Source: Acidimicrobiales bacterium
GTDB lineage: Bacteria; Actinomycetota; Acidimicrobiia; Acidimicrobiales; Aldehydirespiratoraceae
Direction: 5' to 3'
Length of the DNA: 64,000 nucleotides
Assembly: GCA_033344915.1 (NCBI GenBank)
Contig: JAWPML010000001.1
Location: 2,166,369-2,230,368 of the forward strand
Under the pieces are notes generated by a model that saw only the letters and a program-made list of their open reading frames with translations, was not told where the DNA came from and did no database searches. Shown here piece by piece: positions 48,980 through 56,635 of the stretch. Made by a program: the position numbers and the translations under genes. How positions within the stretch are numbered: the first letter of the stretch is position 1; every line of letters begins with the position of its first letter.

Positions 48980-49915
48980 CTACGGGGTCGTGCCATCGAC
49001 CGGTTCGACGGCCTGAAGAGCGAGGAACTCCTCACGCAGGTCACACAGCCACTTGTCGCCTCTCGCCGGCACCTGCCAGACGTCCCAGCCGGCGACGGCA
49101 GCAAGTCCGGATGCGCTCATGGCGGCCTGCGACGGCGAGTCGACGAGGCGCCCGTCGGGAAGGCGGATCTGTCCGTCGGCTGCGATCTCGGCGTGGAACG
49201 TGTCACCCGATCGGGGGCGGACCCATCGCAGTTCGTCCCCCTCGGCCAGCAATCCCGCTTCGGCGAGGTCGTTGATGTGGAGGCGTCGCCCGTTGTGGGT
49301 GTAGCGAACCGGCGTGGCCCGTCCGGGGGTCTCGGGCGTCGCCGAGTCGGTGGTGATGTCGTCGAACTTGCCGTCGATGCGGAAGAGCCGGGACCCGTCA
49401 CCGTCCTCGTAGACGGTGACGGTGACGATCTCGACCGGCAGCCCGTTGGCCTCGAGGAAGGCGATCGCTCCGTGGGTGCGATCATCGACCTCCCCGGCGA
49501 CGAGGTAGAGCAGCGGCTCCTGGGAAATCACCTGGGGAGCAGACGTGCCGGTGAACTCCTGCCAGTCGGCGAAGAACGCCCCGGGATCGTCTGCGAAGTA
49601 GAGAGCGGCGAGTTCGTCGAGGCTCGCCGTCCTCGCCCAGCCGGCGTACTCGAGGCTCTGGGCGAGCTGACTGCGGTCGAGTGATCGCTTCACCTCGAAG
49701 ATCACCACTCGCCCGGTCTGGTCGAGAGCCAGCACATCGGGACGGCCGCCGGTCGAGATCCTCCCCTGCCGACACACCGGGAAGAGATCGCCACCGGTGA
49801 ACGCCTCGAGGTTCGACCACAGCAGGTCCTCTATCTCGCTCTCGTACAGCTCGGGCCCGGGGGTGAGTTGTCGCAGCGGTGCAAGCTGCGAGCCATCGGA
49901 TCTGAAGATCGGCAT
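48980..49915 (-). CDS. PD-(D/E)XK nuclease with C-terminal RAMA-like domain
   Basis: 311 residues from the ATG at 49915, chosen because GGGGAGG lies 6 nt upstream (the GTG at 49990 is weaker). The N-terminal half carries a PD-(D/E)XK core: D60 in RPDVLALD and E74-V-K76 in VVIFEVKRS, with acidic residues near 24-30 as the likely first ligand. The last 90 residues (INDLAEAGLLAEGDELRWVRP, FHAEIAADGQIRLPDG, VDSPSQAAMSASG, GWDVWQV) fit the RAMA/DUF4357 pattern found at the ends of restriction and methylase proteins. It is divergent from hsdM. It is probably an accessory nuclease of the restriction island; NucS-like repair nucleases are the alternative. Confidence 0.7.
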   Translation of the reverse strand: MPIFRSDGSQLAPLRQLTPGPELYESEIEDLLWSNLEAFTGGDLFPVCRQGRISTGGRPDVLALDQTGRVVIFEVKRSLDRSQLAQSLEYAGWARTASLDELAALYFADDPGAFFADWQEFTGTSAPQVISQEPLLYLVAGEVDDRTHGAIAFLEANGLPVEIVTVTVYEDGDGSRLFRIDGKFDDITTDSATPETPGRATPVRYTHNGRRLHINDLAEAGLLAEGDELRWVRPRSGDTFHAEIAADGQIRLPDGRLVDSPSQAAMSASGLAAVAGWDVWQVPARGDKWLCDLREEFLALQAVEPVDGTTP

Positions 49916-49991
49916 CTGATACCTCCCCGTCTCGTCAACGTACTTGAGGGGCGTGACACGGCCGTCGAACCCTGAACCGGCGGCCGCCACA

Positions 49992-50049: not shown

Positions 50050-51597
50050 GTGGCAACAGATCTGGCGGAGCTGCAGTCGAAGCTGTGGGCGGTGGCGGAC
50101 GAGCTCCGAGCGAACTCGGGCCTCAAGGCATCGGAGTACTCGACACCAGTGCTCGGGCTCCTCTTTCTCCGCTACGCCGACGACCGCTTCGCTGCGGTCG
50201 CCGAGCAGGTCGGTGCCGGCTCCGGGCGTTACACGCCGGGCCCGGAGGCCTACATCGCCGAGGGTGCCCTCTACCTGCCCGACGAGGCACGCTTTGAGCG
50301 CCTCGTCGAGCTGACCGAGGCCGACGATCTCGGCAAGGCGCTCAATGACGCCATGAAGGCGATCGAGACCCACAACCCTTCACTCGAGGGGGTGCTCCCC
50401 CGCAACTACGGCGACCTTCCCCACAACGTTCTCGTCGAGCTCCTACGAACGCTGTGGCGCCTCCCCGAGTCGATCGAGGGCGATGGGTTCGGTCTCATCT
50501 ACGAGTACTTCCTCGGCCAATTCGCCATGTCCGAGGGACAGAAGGGCGGCGAGTTCTTCACCCCAACCTCGATCGTTCGCCTGATCGTCGAGGTCCTCGA
50601 ACCGAACCATGGCCGGATCTTCGACCCGGCCTGCGGGTCGGGCGGCATGTTCGTGCAGTCCGCCCACTTCGTCGAGCGTCACCAAGGCAAGCCGTCGGAC
50701 GAGCTTTCCGTGTTCGGTCAGGAGAAGACGGGCGAGACGGTCCGGCTGGCGAAGATGAACCTTGCCGTGCACGGTCTCGAGGGCAACATCCGGGAAGGCA
50801 ACACCTACTACGAGGACCTTCATGACTGCGTCGGCAAGTTCGACTTCGTCATGGCCAACCCTCCGTTCAACGTGAACAAGGTCGACAAGACCAAGCTCGA
50901 AGACGACCCTCGGTTCCCGTTCGGTCTCCCGTCGACCGACAATGCCAACTACCTGTGGATCCAGCAGTTCTACTCGGCACTCAACGACGAGGGCCGGGCC
51001 GGCTTCGTCATGGCCAACTCGGCCTCCGACGCCCGAGGGTCCGAGCTCGAGATCCGCAAGCAGCTGCTCGAGTCCCGAGCCGTCGACGTGATCGTCGCCG
51101 TCGGCACCAACATGTTCTACACCGTCACCCTCCCGGTGACGCTGTGGTTCCTCGACAAAGCCAAAGCGACCAAGGACCCAGAGTGGGCCGACAGCGTCCT
51201 CTTCATCGACGCACGGGAGATCTACAACACGATCGACCGTGCCCACCGGGACTGGACCAACGACCAGATCGAGTTCCTCTCCAACATCGTCCGCCTCTAC
51301 AAGCAGGAGGAGGTCGACGTCACCTCCGACGAGTCTCAGGCGATGCTCGACGAGCACTTCCCCGACGGCGAGTACGTCGACGTGCCTGGCCTCTGCAAGT
51401 TCGCCTCGATCGAAGAGATCGAAGAGCAAGGCTGGAGCCTCAACCCGGGCAGGTATGTCGGCGCACCCCGTGTGCATGTCACCCATGACTTCCTGGACGA
51501 GATGCACCGCCTCGAGGAGGAGTTCAACACGCTCTCCAAGTCGGCTGCTGCCCTGTCTGACTCGGTGTCGGCCACCGTTCGAGCGAGCCTTTCATGA
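50050..51597 (+). CDS. hsdM: Type I restriction-modification methylase subunit
   Basis: 515 residues from a GTG. An N-terminal helical HsdM domain (DLAELQSKLWAVADELR, YSTPVLGLLFLRYADDRF) precedes the gamma-class N6-adenine methylase core: motif I DPACGSGG at 192-199 and motif IV NPPF at 270-273. With HsdS it methylates the recognition site and with HsdR forms the restriction enzyme. Its stop overlaps the hsdS start (ATGA). Confidence 0.95.
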   Translation: MATDLAELQSKLWAVADELRANSGLKASEYSTPVLGLLFLRYADDRFAAVAEQVGAGSGRYTPGPEAYIAEGALYLPDEARFERLVELTEADDLGKALNDAMKAIETHNPSLEGVLPRNYGDLPHNVLVELLRTLWRLPESIEGDGFGLIYEYFLGQFAMSEGQKGGEFFTPTSIVRLIVEVLEPNHGRIFDPACGSGGMFVQSAHFVERHQGKPSDELSVFGQEKTGETVRLAKMNLAVHGLEGNIREGNTYYEDLHDCVGKFDFVMANPPFNVNKVDKTKLEDDPRFPFGLPSTDNANYLWIQQFYSALNDEGRAGFVMANSASDARGSELEIRKQLLESRAVDVIVAVGTNMFYTVTLPVTLWFLDKAKATKDPEWADSVLFIDAREIYNTIDRAHRDWTNDQIEFLSNIVRLYKQEEVDVTSDESQAMLDEHFPDGEYVDVPGLCKFASIEEIEEQGWSLNPGRYVGAPRVHVTHDFLDEMHRLEEEFNTLSKSAAALSDSVSATVRASLS

Positions 51598-52835
51598 CGA
51601 CCCTTTTAGAGGTCTGCGAACTGATCGTCGACTCGGAGCACAAGACGGCGCCAAAGTCCGAAGCGGGCTTTCCGCTAGTACGAACGACGGACATAGGTCG
51701 GGGCCGACTGGACCTGTCGAACGTTCAACGGGTCGACAAAGCGACCTACGACCAATGGACTCGCCGTGCCGTGCCGGTAGAAGGCGATCTGATCCTGGCG
51801 AGGGAGGCACCTGTCGGGAACGTCGCAGTGGTGACAGAGGGCATCAGGCCTGTGCTTGGCCAACGCACGGTGCTGATCCGCCCCGACGACAGCCAGGTCG
51901 ATTCGACGTATCTCTGCTACCGACTGCTCGGAGCCGATGTCCAGCACTGGATGAACGCCGTCGCAAACGGGGCAACGGTGCCGCACCTGAACATGTCCGA
52001 CATCAGAGAGCTTCCGCTGGGAGAGCTACCGGAGATGGAGCTGCAAGGACGGATCGGGACGGCGCTCGCCGACATCGACGATCTGATCGAGAACAACCGG
52101 CGGCGGATCGAGATCCTCGAGGAGATGGCCCGGCTCCTGTACCGGGAGTGGTTCGTGCACTACCGGTTCCCGGGGCATGAGGACGTGGAGCTGATCGATT
52201 CCGAGCTCGGCCCGATCCCCGAAGGGTGGAAGGTCACCTCTCTTCAGGAAGAGTCAAACCTCCTCAAGTCGAATGTGAAGCCCCAGGACTTTCCCGACGA
52301 AGACTTCGCCCACTTCTCCATCCCTGCTCTCGACGAGGCCCATCATCCAGCAATCGAGCCGGGGGCCGATATCAAGAGCGGCAAGTATCTCGTTCGACAG
52401 GAGAGCGTTCTCCTGTCGAAGCTGAACCCTCGGTTCCCTCGAGTCTGGCGAGTGACACCACCGACCTCAACGAGGTCCATTGCCTCGACCGAGTTCCTCG
52501 TCATCGAGGACAACGGCGGGTGGCCTCTACCGTTTCTGTACGGGGTCTGTTCCTCGGACTCTCTATCGGGTCGTCTGACGGCCATGGCTGGCGGTACGTC
52601 CACTAGCCACCAAAGGGTGAAGCCCGGCGATGTTGTCGCACTGCCTTTGGTGGGACCGTCCACGGAGGTAGTCGACCGGTACTCAACGATAGCCACGCCC
52701 ATGCTGGACTTGGCTGACAACCTCCGGGACCAGAACAAGACCCTGACTGCCGCCCGGGATCTACTACTTCCCCGTCTGGTCTCCGGCGAGCTCGACGTGT
52801 CGGAGATCGACTTGGAGCTGGAGGCGGTGGGCTGA
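51594..52835 (+). CDS. hsdS: Type I restriction-modification specificity subunit
   Basis: 413 residues with the two-lobed HsdS plan. Target-recognition domain 1 occupies about 1-145, followed by the central conserved helices (GRIGTALADIDDLIENNRRR ... LLYREWF) near 150-188. TRD 2 lies at about 200-365, followed by the C-terminal conserved helices (NLRDQNKTLTAARDLLLPRLVSGELDV). It sets the bipartite DNA target. The gene looks clearly less GC-rich than its neighbours, as is common in swapped specificity genes. Confidence 0.9.
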   Translation: MTTLLEVCELIVDSEHKTAPKSEAGFPLVRTTDIGRGRLDLSNVQRVDKATYDQWTRRAVPVEGDLILAREAPVGNVAVVTEGIRPVLGQRTVLIRPDDSQVDSTYLCYRLLGADVQHWMNAVANGATVPHLNMSDIRELPLGELPEMELQGRIGTALADIDDLIENNRRRIEILEEMARLLYREWFVHYRFPGHEDVELIDSELGPIPEGWKVTSLQEESNLLKSNVKPQDFPDEDFAHFSIPALDEAHHPAIEPGADIKSGKYLVRQESVLLSKLNPRFPRVWRVTPPTSTRSIASTEFLVIEDNGGWPLPFLYGVCSSDSLSGRLTAMAGGTSTSHQRVKPGDVVALPLVGPSTEVVDRYSTIATPMLDLADNLRDQNKTLTAARDLLLPRLVSGELDVSEIDLELEAVG

Positions 52836-52837
52836 AA

Positions 52838-55800
52838 ATGGTTGGCGGCGGGTTCGGAGAGGATGCGGCGGTCGAGCAGCCGGCACTGGCGGTGCTGGCG
52901 GACCTCGGGTGGGACACGGCATCGGGTGCACAGGAGACCTTTGGGTCCGGAGGGTCCTTGGGGCGTGACTTTCAGTCCGATGTCGTCCTTCGCCATCGGC
53001 TCAAGGACACGTTGAAGGTCCTGAACCCGGAGATCCCCGATGCCGGGCTCGACAAGGCGATCGAGGAGCTCGTCGAGTCCCGGTCGGCGATGGACCAGGT
53101 GCGGGCGAACCAGGCCGTCTACGGGTTGTTGCGTGACGGGTGCGGCGTCGAGGTCGAGCTCGACGACGGCACCCGAGAGACGAGACGGGTCCGGTTCATC
53201 GACTGGGACCGGTCGGCCAACAACGAGTACCTGGCGGTGTCGCAGCTGAGGGTCGCCGGCGATATGTACAACCGCCGCACCGACGTCGTGCTCTTCGTCA
53301 ACGGCATCCCGCTCGTGCTCATGGAGTTCAAGGCGCCGCACGTCAACGTGAAGGCGGCGTTCGACGACAACCTGCGGGACTACCGGGAAGCGATCCCGGA
53401 GCTGTTCGCCTACAACGGGTTCGTGCTGCTCTCCAACGGGGGCGACAGCAAGATCGGGTCGACCTTCGCTGGGTGGGGGCACTTCGCCGACTGGAAGAAG
53501 ATCAACAGCGAAGGCGAGGAAGGCGTCGTCTCGCTCGAGACCGCCCTACGAGGCACGTGTGAACCGGCACGGCTCCTCGACCTGATCGACAACTTCGTCG
53601 TCTACACCGAGCGCCCTGGCGGGCTCGTCAAGGCCGTGGCCAAGAACCATCAGTACCTGGGCGTGAACAACGCCCTCGATGCACTGGCCGACGTGAAAGA
53701 GTGTGGTGGGCGCCTGGGTGTGTTCTGGCACACCCAGGGGTCGGGCAAGTCGTTGTCGATGCTCTGGTTCACCCAGAAGGTGTTGCGCAAGCGGCCCGGC
53801 AACTGGACGTTCGTGCTCGTCACCGACCGCAAAGAGCTCGACGATCAGCTCTACGAGGAGTTCGCCGACTCGGGTGTGATCACCTCCGGCGTGCAGGTGC
53901 ACGCCGAGACATCGGCGCACCTGCGGGAGTTGCTGCGGGCCGATCACCGGTACGTCTTCACGCTGATCCACAAGTTCATCCCGGAGGAACGCAACGGCGA
54001 GATGCCGGTGCTGTCCGAGCGTGACGACATCGTGGTGATCACCGACGAGGCCCACCGGTCGCAGTACGACACGCTGGCGATGAACATGCGCAAGGCGCTG
54101 CCCAACGCATCGTTCCTCGGGTTCACCGGCACGCCGCTGATCGCCGGTGAGGAGCTCACCCGGCAGGTGTTCGGCGACTACGTGTCGGTCTACAACTTCC
54201 GGGACTCGATCGAGGACGGCGCCACCGTGCCGCTCTACTACGAGAACCGGATCCCCGAGCTGCAGCTCGTCAACGACGACTTCGACGAGGAACTCGAGGA
54301 GCTCCTCGAACGGGCCGAGCTCGACGACGGCCAAGAGAAGGCCGTCTCTCGCCAGTTCTCCCGCCAGTACCACCTCATCACCCGTTCCGAACGTCTCGAC
54401 GAGATCGCCGACGACGTCGTAGATCACTTCCTGAACCGGGGGTTCCGAGGCAAGGGCATGTACGTGGCGATCGACAAGGCGACGGCCGTGCGGATGCACG
54501 ACCGGGTGGCCGCTCGATGGGCCACCCGGCTCGCCGAACTCGAAGCTGAGATCGAGTCGGCCCCCGAACTCGAGCGTCCACCGCTCGAAGCGCTGGCGGA
54601 GTTCATGCGCAGCACCGACATGGCCGTCGTCGTGTCGCAGGGGCAGAACGAGCAGGCCGACATGGCCGAGCTCGGCCTCGACATCACGCCGCACCGTCAA
54701 AGGATGGTGAAGGAGGACCTCGACTCGGAGTTCAAGGACCCGGCCGACCCGTTCCGGCTCGTGTTCGTCTGCGCCATGTGGCTGACCGGGTTCGATGCGC
54801 CGTCGTGCTCGACCGTGTACCTCGACAAGCCGATGCGCAACCACACACTGATGCAGACGATCGCCCGAGCGAACCGGGTGTTCCCCGACAAGGAGAACGG
54901 GCTGATTGTCGACTACGTCGGGGTGTTCCGCAACCTCGAAGATGCACTCGCCATCTACGGCTCCGGCTCGGAGCAGGACGTGCTGGGCGAGTTGCCGGTC
55001 CGTCAGAAGGACGAGCTCATCGCTGAGCTCGAGACGGCGCTGTCGAACGTCGCCGACTTCCTCGACGACCACGATGTCGATCTCGATGACCTCGAACACT
55101 CACAAGGACTCGAGTTCGTCGCCCTGCAGTCCTCAGCCGCTGAAGCGTTGCTGATCGACGACGACACCCGCCGCCGGTACACAAGGCTGGCCACCGAGAC
55201 CCGCAATGCCTTCAAGGCGCTGCTCCCCGACCCGCACGCCCAGGCCCGCACCCGTCGGGTGGCAGTGATCCGCTCGCTGGCGAAGAAGCTCGCATCTGCG
55301 ACCGACCCGCCCGACATCAGCGACGTGATGGACTCGGTGTCGGAACTCCTCGACCGATCGGTCGGTGCGGAGGAGTACATCATCCGCACCGCCGGCGACG
55401 CCGACCCGATCTTCGATCTCGGGGCGATCGATTTCGAACAGCTCGCTCTTCGGTTCGCCGACAAGAAGCGCACGGCTGCGAACGCCGTGCGCAACCAGGT
55501 CGAGGAGCGGCTCGACAAGGCAGTGCGGGAGAATCCGACCCGCATGGAGCTCGCCGAGCGGTTCCGTCGACTGATCGACGAGTACAACGCCGGCACCCAC
55601 AACATCGAAGAGTTCCTACGTCGGCTCGAAGCGATCTCCAACGAGCTCTCGGCGGAGGAAACCCGCTCCGTTCGGGAGGACCTGTCCGAAGCGGAGCTCG
55701 CCATCTTCGACCTGTTGACGAAACCCGAGCCTGAGCTGACGGCCGCCGAACGAACGCAGGTGAAGCTCGCCGCCAAACACCTGCTCGAGGCGATCACGGA

Positions 55801-56635
55801 TCGCCTCGTGTTGGACTGGCGGCGACGGGCCCGTGGCAAGGCTGCCGTGCAGCATGTGATCGGCCACACGCTCAACCAGGAGCTTCCCGACGCCTATGGT
55901 CCCGAGCTGTTCGACCAGAAGGTGCAACTCGTGTTCGACCACGTGTACAGCAGCTTCTTCGACGACGGCTCGAGCGTCTACGACGTCGAGCCCGAAGCCA
56001 CCACGACGGCCGTGGCAGTGATGCCAGACGCTCCAATCGATTCGACCGAGGGCGTCGTCGAGCGAGTCCGGGAGGATCCAGACTTTGCCGCTCGGCTCCT
56101 CGAGGAGCTCCTGGGCGCAGCGGCAGTGTGGGCAATCTCGACCGTCGACCTACTTGCCGGTGGCCCTGATGAGAACCGGTTGGTCGAGTACAAGCAGACA
56201 GCCCGCTGGAACGTGCGGGAGCAGAAGAAGGACAAGACCATGGAGGACGTCGTCGTGAAGACAGTGGCCGGGTTCCTCAACGGCGAGGGCGGGACGCTGC
56301 TGATCGGCGTCGACGATGATGGCCGGGCCGTCGGTCTCGACTCCGACTACGCCCTTGTGAAGCCGCAGAGCCGGGACGGCTACGTCAATTGGCTCGACAC
56401 CATGCTCGAAAACGCCCTCGGCCACGCCGGGGCTCATCGGGTCCAGATCCGACTCGAACTCGTCGGCGGCTACGACGTGTGCCGTATCAACGTGCCCGCT
56501 TCGTCTCGACCGATCTGGGCCAAGAGGGGTGACGAGGAGGTGTTGTTCGAGCGCCGCAACAACTCCACCCGAGCCGTCCCGAAGGAAGAGGAGGGCGACT
56601 TCATCGCCGAGCGCTTCGGACGAGAGCATGTCTAG
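52838..56635 (+). CDS. hsdR: Type I restriction subunit fused to an AlbA_2/Schlafen-like domain
   Basis: 1265 residues, longer than a typical HsdR (about 1000-1100). An N-terminal PD-(D/E)XK nuclease (D149, E163-F-K165) is followed by the SF2 translocase: Walker A HTQGSGKS at 298-305, DEAH at 403-406, GFTGTPL and a motif VI-like [11 protein letters not shown] helical DUF3387-type region comes next. From about residue 1105 is an added domain of about 150 residues: E1112-NRLV-E1117-[20 protein letters not shown] (D1159-1161) and a C-terminal ERRNNST segment. This matches the AlbA_2/Schlafen family, whose members include tRNA/RNA nucleases. The role of the extra domain is inferred. ATG 3 nt after hsdS. 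Confidence 0.88.
56171..56620 (+). other. C-terminal AlbA_2/Schlafen-like domain of HsdR
   Basis: Residues about 1112-1261 of HsdR. The acidic pair E1112/E1117 is spaced five apart, and Asp residues lie about 42 later in GVDDDG. As I recall, this mirrors the spacing of the catalytic Glu/Glu/Asp in Schlafen tRNA nucleases. The following [11 protein letters not shown] stretch matches the end of the AlbA_2 family. Domain identity is by pattern, not by search. Confidence 0.75.

Follow-up and report, generated by a model that had tools for sequence, protein, structure and literature searches.

Why should the restriction subunit of a bacterial type I enzyme end in a domain of the kind found in Schlafen proteins, and could such a tail serve as a second effector? 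The question is raised by an operon in the window, i.e., the whole stretch of 64,000 nucleotides analyzed here, in which hsdM, hsdS, and hsdR follow one another on the plus strand. The first gene (hsdM, 50050–51597) encodes a type I N6-adenine methyltransferase of 515 aa, recognized by Pfam (PF02384, 284.7 bits; HsdM_N, 80.4 bits) and PADLOC (MTase_I, 704 bits), in which a motif scan found the DPACGSG and NPPF motifs intact. It is overlapped by 4 bp by hsdS (51594–52835), the gene of a specificity subunit of 413 aa (Pfam, PF01420; PADLOC, Specificity_I), and 2 bp further on hsdR (52838–56635) encodes a protein of 1265 aa that matches TIGR00348 (hsdR) with 501 bits and carries a C-terminal AlbA_2 domain. 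Ahead of that domain, HsdR comprises an HSDR_N endonuclease domain (residues 9–212, 52862–53473; PF04313, 144 bits), whose nuclease motif D149...E-x-K165 is intact by motif scan, a SWI2/SNF2 motor domain (residues 271–494, 53648–54319; PF18766, 245 bits), in which the same scan recovered Walker A (TQGSGKS, 299–305) and DEAH (403–406), a T1R_D3-like region (residues 621–693, Pfam), and a T1RH-like_C helical domain (residues 720–1035, 54995–55942; PF11867, 118.6 bits). Since the motifs of HsdM and HsdR are intact, nothing points to a dead restriction enzyme, and the three adjacent genes form a complete type I R-M system predicted to be active. Among the window ORFs, no additional gene of the separate HEPN/ABC-ATPase kind represented by PrrC lies inside the operon. 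Divergent from hsdM, a gene on the minus strand (48980–49990) encodes a protein of 336 aa that matches the PADLOC models PDC-S11/S14/S18, ends in a RAMA domain, and contains an E-V-K nuclease-like motif; no such gene was found next to the other hsd operons with a tail that were inspected.

Past the helical domain, a junction or linker (approximately residues 1050–1104, 55985–56149) begins at the point where tailless relatives of this HsdR end, right after SVYD, and leads into the tail (approximately residues 1105–1261, 56150–56620; Pfam match 1112–1247), which the initial annotation had taken for a C-terminal AlbA_2/Schlafen-type domain. PF04326 matches the whole HsdR with 48.2 bits (E = 1.8e-12) and reaches 53.5 bits in a genome scan, in which the tail was the sole match in the 4.48-Mb genome; with a cut-off of 25.3, a chance resemblance to AlbA_2 was rejected. 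A search of the PDB with the single tail sequence gave nothing significant (best 0.042, SLFN8), whereas a profile of 62 tails found SLFN14, SLFN11, SLFN8, SLFN12, and SLFN5 with E values from 1.8e-11 (SLFN14) through 2.3e-10 (SLFN11) to 1.1e-6, and also CbCash (1e-7), 3lmm, and 2kyy. An AlphaFold2 model built with 12 close sequences was discarded for its pLDDT of 50.6; the addition of three divergent sequences from viral contigs, 15 in total, raised the pLDDT to 85.5, with a pTM of 0.84. Foldseek placed this model nearest to 3lmm (4e-7), the DNA-binding/tRNase domain of SAMD9 (7.6e-6 and 3.9e-5), and SLFN13 (7.7e-5), followed by SLFN12, SLFN14, SLFN5, and SLFN11, with probabilities mostly of 0.97–1.00 and a TM of about 0.4–0.65 by query. 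The tail thus matches both PF04326 and the Schlafen structures, and the agreement of Pfam, the 62-tail profile, and Foldseek confirms that HsdR ends in an SLFN_AlbA_2 domain of the Schlafen/SAMD9 fold. Pfam finds a single AlbA_2 match in HsdR, so the two-lobed, one-chain Slfn core is not formed, and it finds no HEPN domain in the protein. Because 11 further contigs carry the fusion too, nearly all with a full-length HsdR and with 60–69% identity in the tail, it is not an assembly artefact.

The residues that had been singled out as the catalytic acids, E1112, E1117, and D1159–D1161, lie where they had been placed, although the set needs correction. By alignment, E1112 (56171–56173) corresponds to SLFN11 E209, E1117 (56186–56188) to E214, K1119 (56192–56194) to K216, and D1160 (56315–56317) to D252, the SLFN11 numbers being those of the chain less 28, an offset that we derived from the residue numbers in the literature. 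Both glutamates and the lysine are invariant (62/62 tails), as is R1239; in the aspartate stretch (56312–56320), D1160 alone is conserved (60/62, proline replacing it in two HsdRs), D1161 is partly so, and the position of D1159 is variable (A, D, T, S, N, G, and others). Loss of the acidic residues among homologues was therefore not what the 62-tail alignment showed, save at D1159 and partly at D1161. Proline stands at the D1160 position in the tailed HsdR of locus L046 and in the tails of L020, L066 (HsdR1), and L040, the latter three keeping E, E, and K. In SLFN11, the E209A, E214A, and K216A mutants are inactive and D252A is dispensable, and Schlafens without one of the three E/E/K residues are nuclease-deficient (PMC9482658); in SLFN13, the E205A and E210A mutants are absolutely inactive, both residues being required (PMC5862951), and these correspond to two of the three in the HsdR tail. 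For that reason, the informative set is E1112/E1117/K1119, in which the lysine, missed by the initial annotation, weighs more than the aspartate. Nevertheless, E-x4-E-x-K is nearly universal in the sampled AlbA_2 domains (6/6, 5/6, and 6/6 in other AlbA_2 proteins) and is found even in small membrane proteins outside defence loci, so that the motif is permissive rather than diagnostic, and the conservation of E, E, and K speaks for competence for catalysis, not for activity.

The survey of tailed HsdRs and their neighbors that the initial annotation had called for returned two HsdR families with the tail. HsdRs 57–70% identical overall to this one carry it in a series of genomes from Acidimicrobiia and related actinobacteria, and hsdM and hsdS precede most of those on long enough contigs; no hsdS was called in the hsdM–hsdR gap of L046. 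Downstream of the tailed hsdR of L046, and overlapping it, are DarT toxin and Macro-domain genes resembling DarTG (L046:9624–11406, plus strand), and a reverse transcriptase gene (RVT_1, 548 aa; L005:7599–9245, plus strand) adjoins another tailed hsdR. Within the class sample of 296 genomes, 10 have an HsdR at least 53% identical, five tailed and five tailless, and further tailed HsdRs were sought, and found, elsewhere in the phylum. The tail is hence facultative, being absent from HsdRs 53–70% identical to the present one: the five tailless proteins (G248, G181, G242, G007, and G180) stop just past the T1RH-like_C region, with no detectable remnant of the tail downstream. In the tree of HsdR bodies, the tailless enzymes of G248 and of G181/G242 are nested within the tailed clade, which takes two changes or more, most simply explained as losses; the six suggested by automatic labels are an overstatement, since L011 (a frameshift before the tail) and L077 (a partial protein) were called tailless and yet the tail follows in both. 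The second family, only 22–27% identical to this HsdR, has in the class sample eight tailed members of full length, several that are broken or cut by contig ends, and about eight tailless ones, called so from frame length and because PF04326 does not match there; among these, the protein of G051 is 64% identical to a tailed member over the shared part. A 750-aa protein (L076) considered as a GmrSD was rejected as such, being a fragment of the second family at a contig end with 49% identity to L057. Two tailless operons contain other genes in the vicinity of the missing tail. In L051 (5356–5913, minus strand), a tailless HsdR1 gene is followed, directly past its stop, by the start of a gene for a 186-aa protein, which has no Pfam match, contains RNRSTH, a HEPN-type Rx4H sequence, and could be a different RNase replacing the tail. 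In L052 (4489–5829, minus strand), a locus of G059, the gene of a standalone 446-aa AlbA_2 protein shares 4 bp with a tailless hsdR. Where present, the tail is under purifying selection, mostly looser than that on the core, as dN/dS (Nei–Gojobori, eight pairs) was 0.10–0.31 for the tail and 0.07–0.15 for the body.

The tail had been presented as a feature of HsdR, on which it is indeed found, but it is not specific to HsdR, because the same subfamily, approximately 160 residues long and C-terminal in every host, occurs on defence proteins of at least five kinds. Proteins with a GmrSD_N/DUF262 domain carry it in actinobacteria, Sinorhizobium, and haloarchaea. A BrxL (L101:4942–6969, minus strand) ends in it as well, a position at which HKD nucleases were reported in a survey of BREX that does not use the term AlbA (PMC12839542), and so does a 1988-aa protein combining a DUF4011 helicase and an MTES_1575 REase (L071:7185–13148, minus strand), which matches PDC-S37 and Hhe in PADLOC. 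A type I locus on a Pseudoalteromonas plasmid (L086:4138–12477) has two different AlbA_2 proteins, namely a tailed N6-methyltransferase adjoining the locus and, between hsdS and hsdR, a 661-aa AlbA_2–HATPase_c_4 protein. In the tree of tails, HsdR1 (17 rows, 98/81) and HsdR2 (18 rows, 99/96) form one clade each, and a single origin of the two was not rejected (p = 0.084); the GmrSD tails are scattered, with six changes, and the rejection of one GmrSD clade (p-AU 0.0036) implies that the module was attached or exchanged more than once. Phage records gave no match, and viral contigs gave one member of the subfamily (L107) and two distant AlbA_2 domains; a phage origin is thus not supported and was set aside. 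Small actinobacterial proteins with a Transgly_assoc-like, membrane-anchored N-terminus (L090–L095 and L102) also bear the tail, in partly conserved, syntenic housekeeping neighborhoods without recognizable defence genes, and for this reason the tail is not exclusively a defence domain.

What, then, might the tail do? We envisage, with about even confidence, that it is a metal-dependent RNase, probably directed at tRNA, which serves HsdR as a built-in backup effector. Contact with the HsdR/methyltransferase core would keep the RNase off, and it would be freed when an anti-restriction protein blocks the core or when the core is stalled or translocating; once free, it would stop translation and abort the infection. 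Gating is the least certain step of this proposal; the initial annotation had suggested a stronger version, in which DNA translocation itself might be coupled to RNA cleavage. A domain under constraint and competent for Schlafen chemistry, present on HsdR, GmrSD, BrxL, and Hhe-like proteins, fits the known precedents of RNase backup, and this is why we favor the gated RNase. In its favor are the invariance of E1112/E1117/K1119, the PF04326 score together with the profile, AlphaFold2, and Foldseek results reaching the Schlafens, the tail's low dN/dS, and the range of hosts (HsdR1, HsdR2, GmrSD_N, BrxL, PDC-S37/Hhe-like, and N6-methyltransferase proteins). Among the precedents, PrrC accompanies EcoprrI, a type IC R-M enzyme, and is activated when the Stp protein of phage T4 inhibits it (PMC12707154); the logic proposed here is the same, in that inhibition of restriction triggers an effector against tRNA that is linked to a type I enzyme, but PrrC, which combines an ABC ATPase with a HEPN nuclease, is encoded by a gene of its own, whereas the present domain is of the unrelated Schlafen fold and is fused to HsdR. 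HEPN RNases are recurrently fused to R-M nucleases and helicases, and the R-M subunit was proposed to restrain the RNase until neutralized (Anantharaman et al. 2013; PMC3710099). These are likewise predicted RNases on restriction enzymes with a block-and-release proposal, of another fold and active site, and the giant MTES_1575-type protein described there with a HEPN domain has the AlbA_2 tail in L071; BrxL and a methyltransferase (L086) are further hosts of AlbA_2. Schlafen RNases are also predicted backup effectors beside BREX (PMC12839542), where the bacterial Schlafen domain would likewise act against phages, although in that survey they stand as separate proteins, with a minimal histidine kinase and a wHTH, and not as C-terminal tails of HsdR, GmrSD, or BrxL. 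The standalone AlbA_2 proteins of hsd operons (L052/G059 and L086) resemble an unfused counterpart of the fusion but belong to other subfamilies, with HATPase_c_4 or an uncharacterized N-terminus as companion.

Several observations count against the gated RNase and open the way to other readings. Its candidate motif is nearly universal in AlbA_2 domains, and the membrane-anchored members in housekeeping neighborhoods ill suit a dedicated suicide effector. SLFN11, SLFN13, and SLFN14 share the fold and the E/E/K residues with the tail but have two AlbA_2-like lobes per chain against its one; SAMD9, whose tRNase domain has the same fold, is like it in having a single lobe. As a speculation, a restriction complex, which contains HsdR in two copies, would place two tails side by side, and the pair could supply what Schlafens form from two lobes. 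The HEPN–R-M fusions avoid methylases (PMC3710099), whereas a methyltransferase hosts the tail in L086. Moreover, the SAMD9 domain binds tRNA and dsDNA, and the rabbit AlbA_2 fragment alone binds both but does not cleave, needing the neighboring SIR2 region to do so (PMC12331169). This leads to the main rival, a non-catalytic nucleic-acid-binding tail that helps its HsdR, GmrSD, BrxL, helicase, or methyltransferase host to hold or assemble on DNA. All the large hosts act on DNA, binding of dsDNA by the equivalent SAMD9 domain is documented (7ksp; PMC12331169), and DNA binding has been ascribed to the PF04326 domains of pAgo proteins (PMC6299218); yet strict invariance of the E/E/K residues better fits metal and catalysis than phosphate binding, a membrane anchor is odd for a DNA clamp, and close HsdR relatives manage without the tail, so that we regard this reading as unlikely, though a serious contender.

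That same facultative presence on otherwise similar enzymes, the variety of hosts, and the occurrence of another AlbA_2 beside HATPase_c_4 in the 661-aa protein of L086 would suit a sensor binding tRNA, nucleotides, or another ligand and tuning restriction, e.g., in restriction alleviation, with no effector role. We know of no ligand for the tail, which counts against a sensor, and conservation centers on the Schlafen catalytic residues, making it improbable. Were the metal-binding E/E/K site on a DNA translocase that of a second DNase or nickase, it would attack the translocated DNA and reinforce restriction, in keeping with several hosts being themselves DNA nucleases or motors. For the closest characterized relatives, SLFN11, SLFN13, and SAMD9, the cleavage reported is that of tRNA, and HsdR already has an intact nuclease domain, so we find this quite improbable too. 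If the tail were a hitch-hiker, neutral or in decay and no longer of use, it might be expected to be missing from several close relatives and to evolve somewhat faster than the HsdR body, both of which hold, but it has been independently retained on many hosts, and the dN/dS values together with the invariant E/E/K residues largely refute decay, leaving this reading very improbable indeed.

Extending the gated RNase beyond HsdR, we tentatively suggest, though we hold it somewhat short of probable, that a portable Schlafen-type RNase tail is a universal plug-in backup coupling HsdR of type I systems, GmrSD-like enzymes of type IV, BrxL of BREX, and Hhe-like enzymes to translation shutdown. One C-terminal module would then have been repeatedly gained, lost, and exchanged, acting when the DNA-targeting part of its host is defeated. 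The initial annotation knew of no fusion of AlbA_2 to HsdR as a described system, and we found no description of one in the literature searched, although a preprint on bacterial Schlafens in phage defence may overlap; the idea of an RNase tied to restriction is, in contrast, already known from PrrC/EcoprrI and the HEPN fusions. The AlbA_2 domain itself is detected by automatic annotation, and what we rate as new is the recurrent combination of a domain and a logic that were each known already. The proposal lends itself to direct testing: a single domain and three residues are at issue, the domain occurs on several hosts, and tailless relatives provide natural controls. Should the tail prove to be an active RNase under gating, one enzyme alone would turn failure of restriction into translation shutdown, the human Schlafen and SAMD9 antiviral proteins with their tRNA-cutting domains would have a direct counterpart in bacteria, and many proteins annotated merely as restriction or BREX subunits would bear a second weapon.
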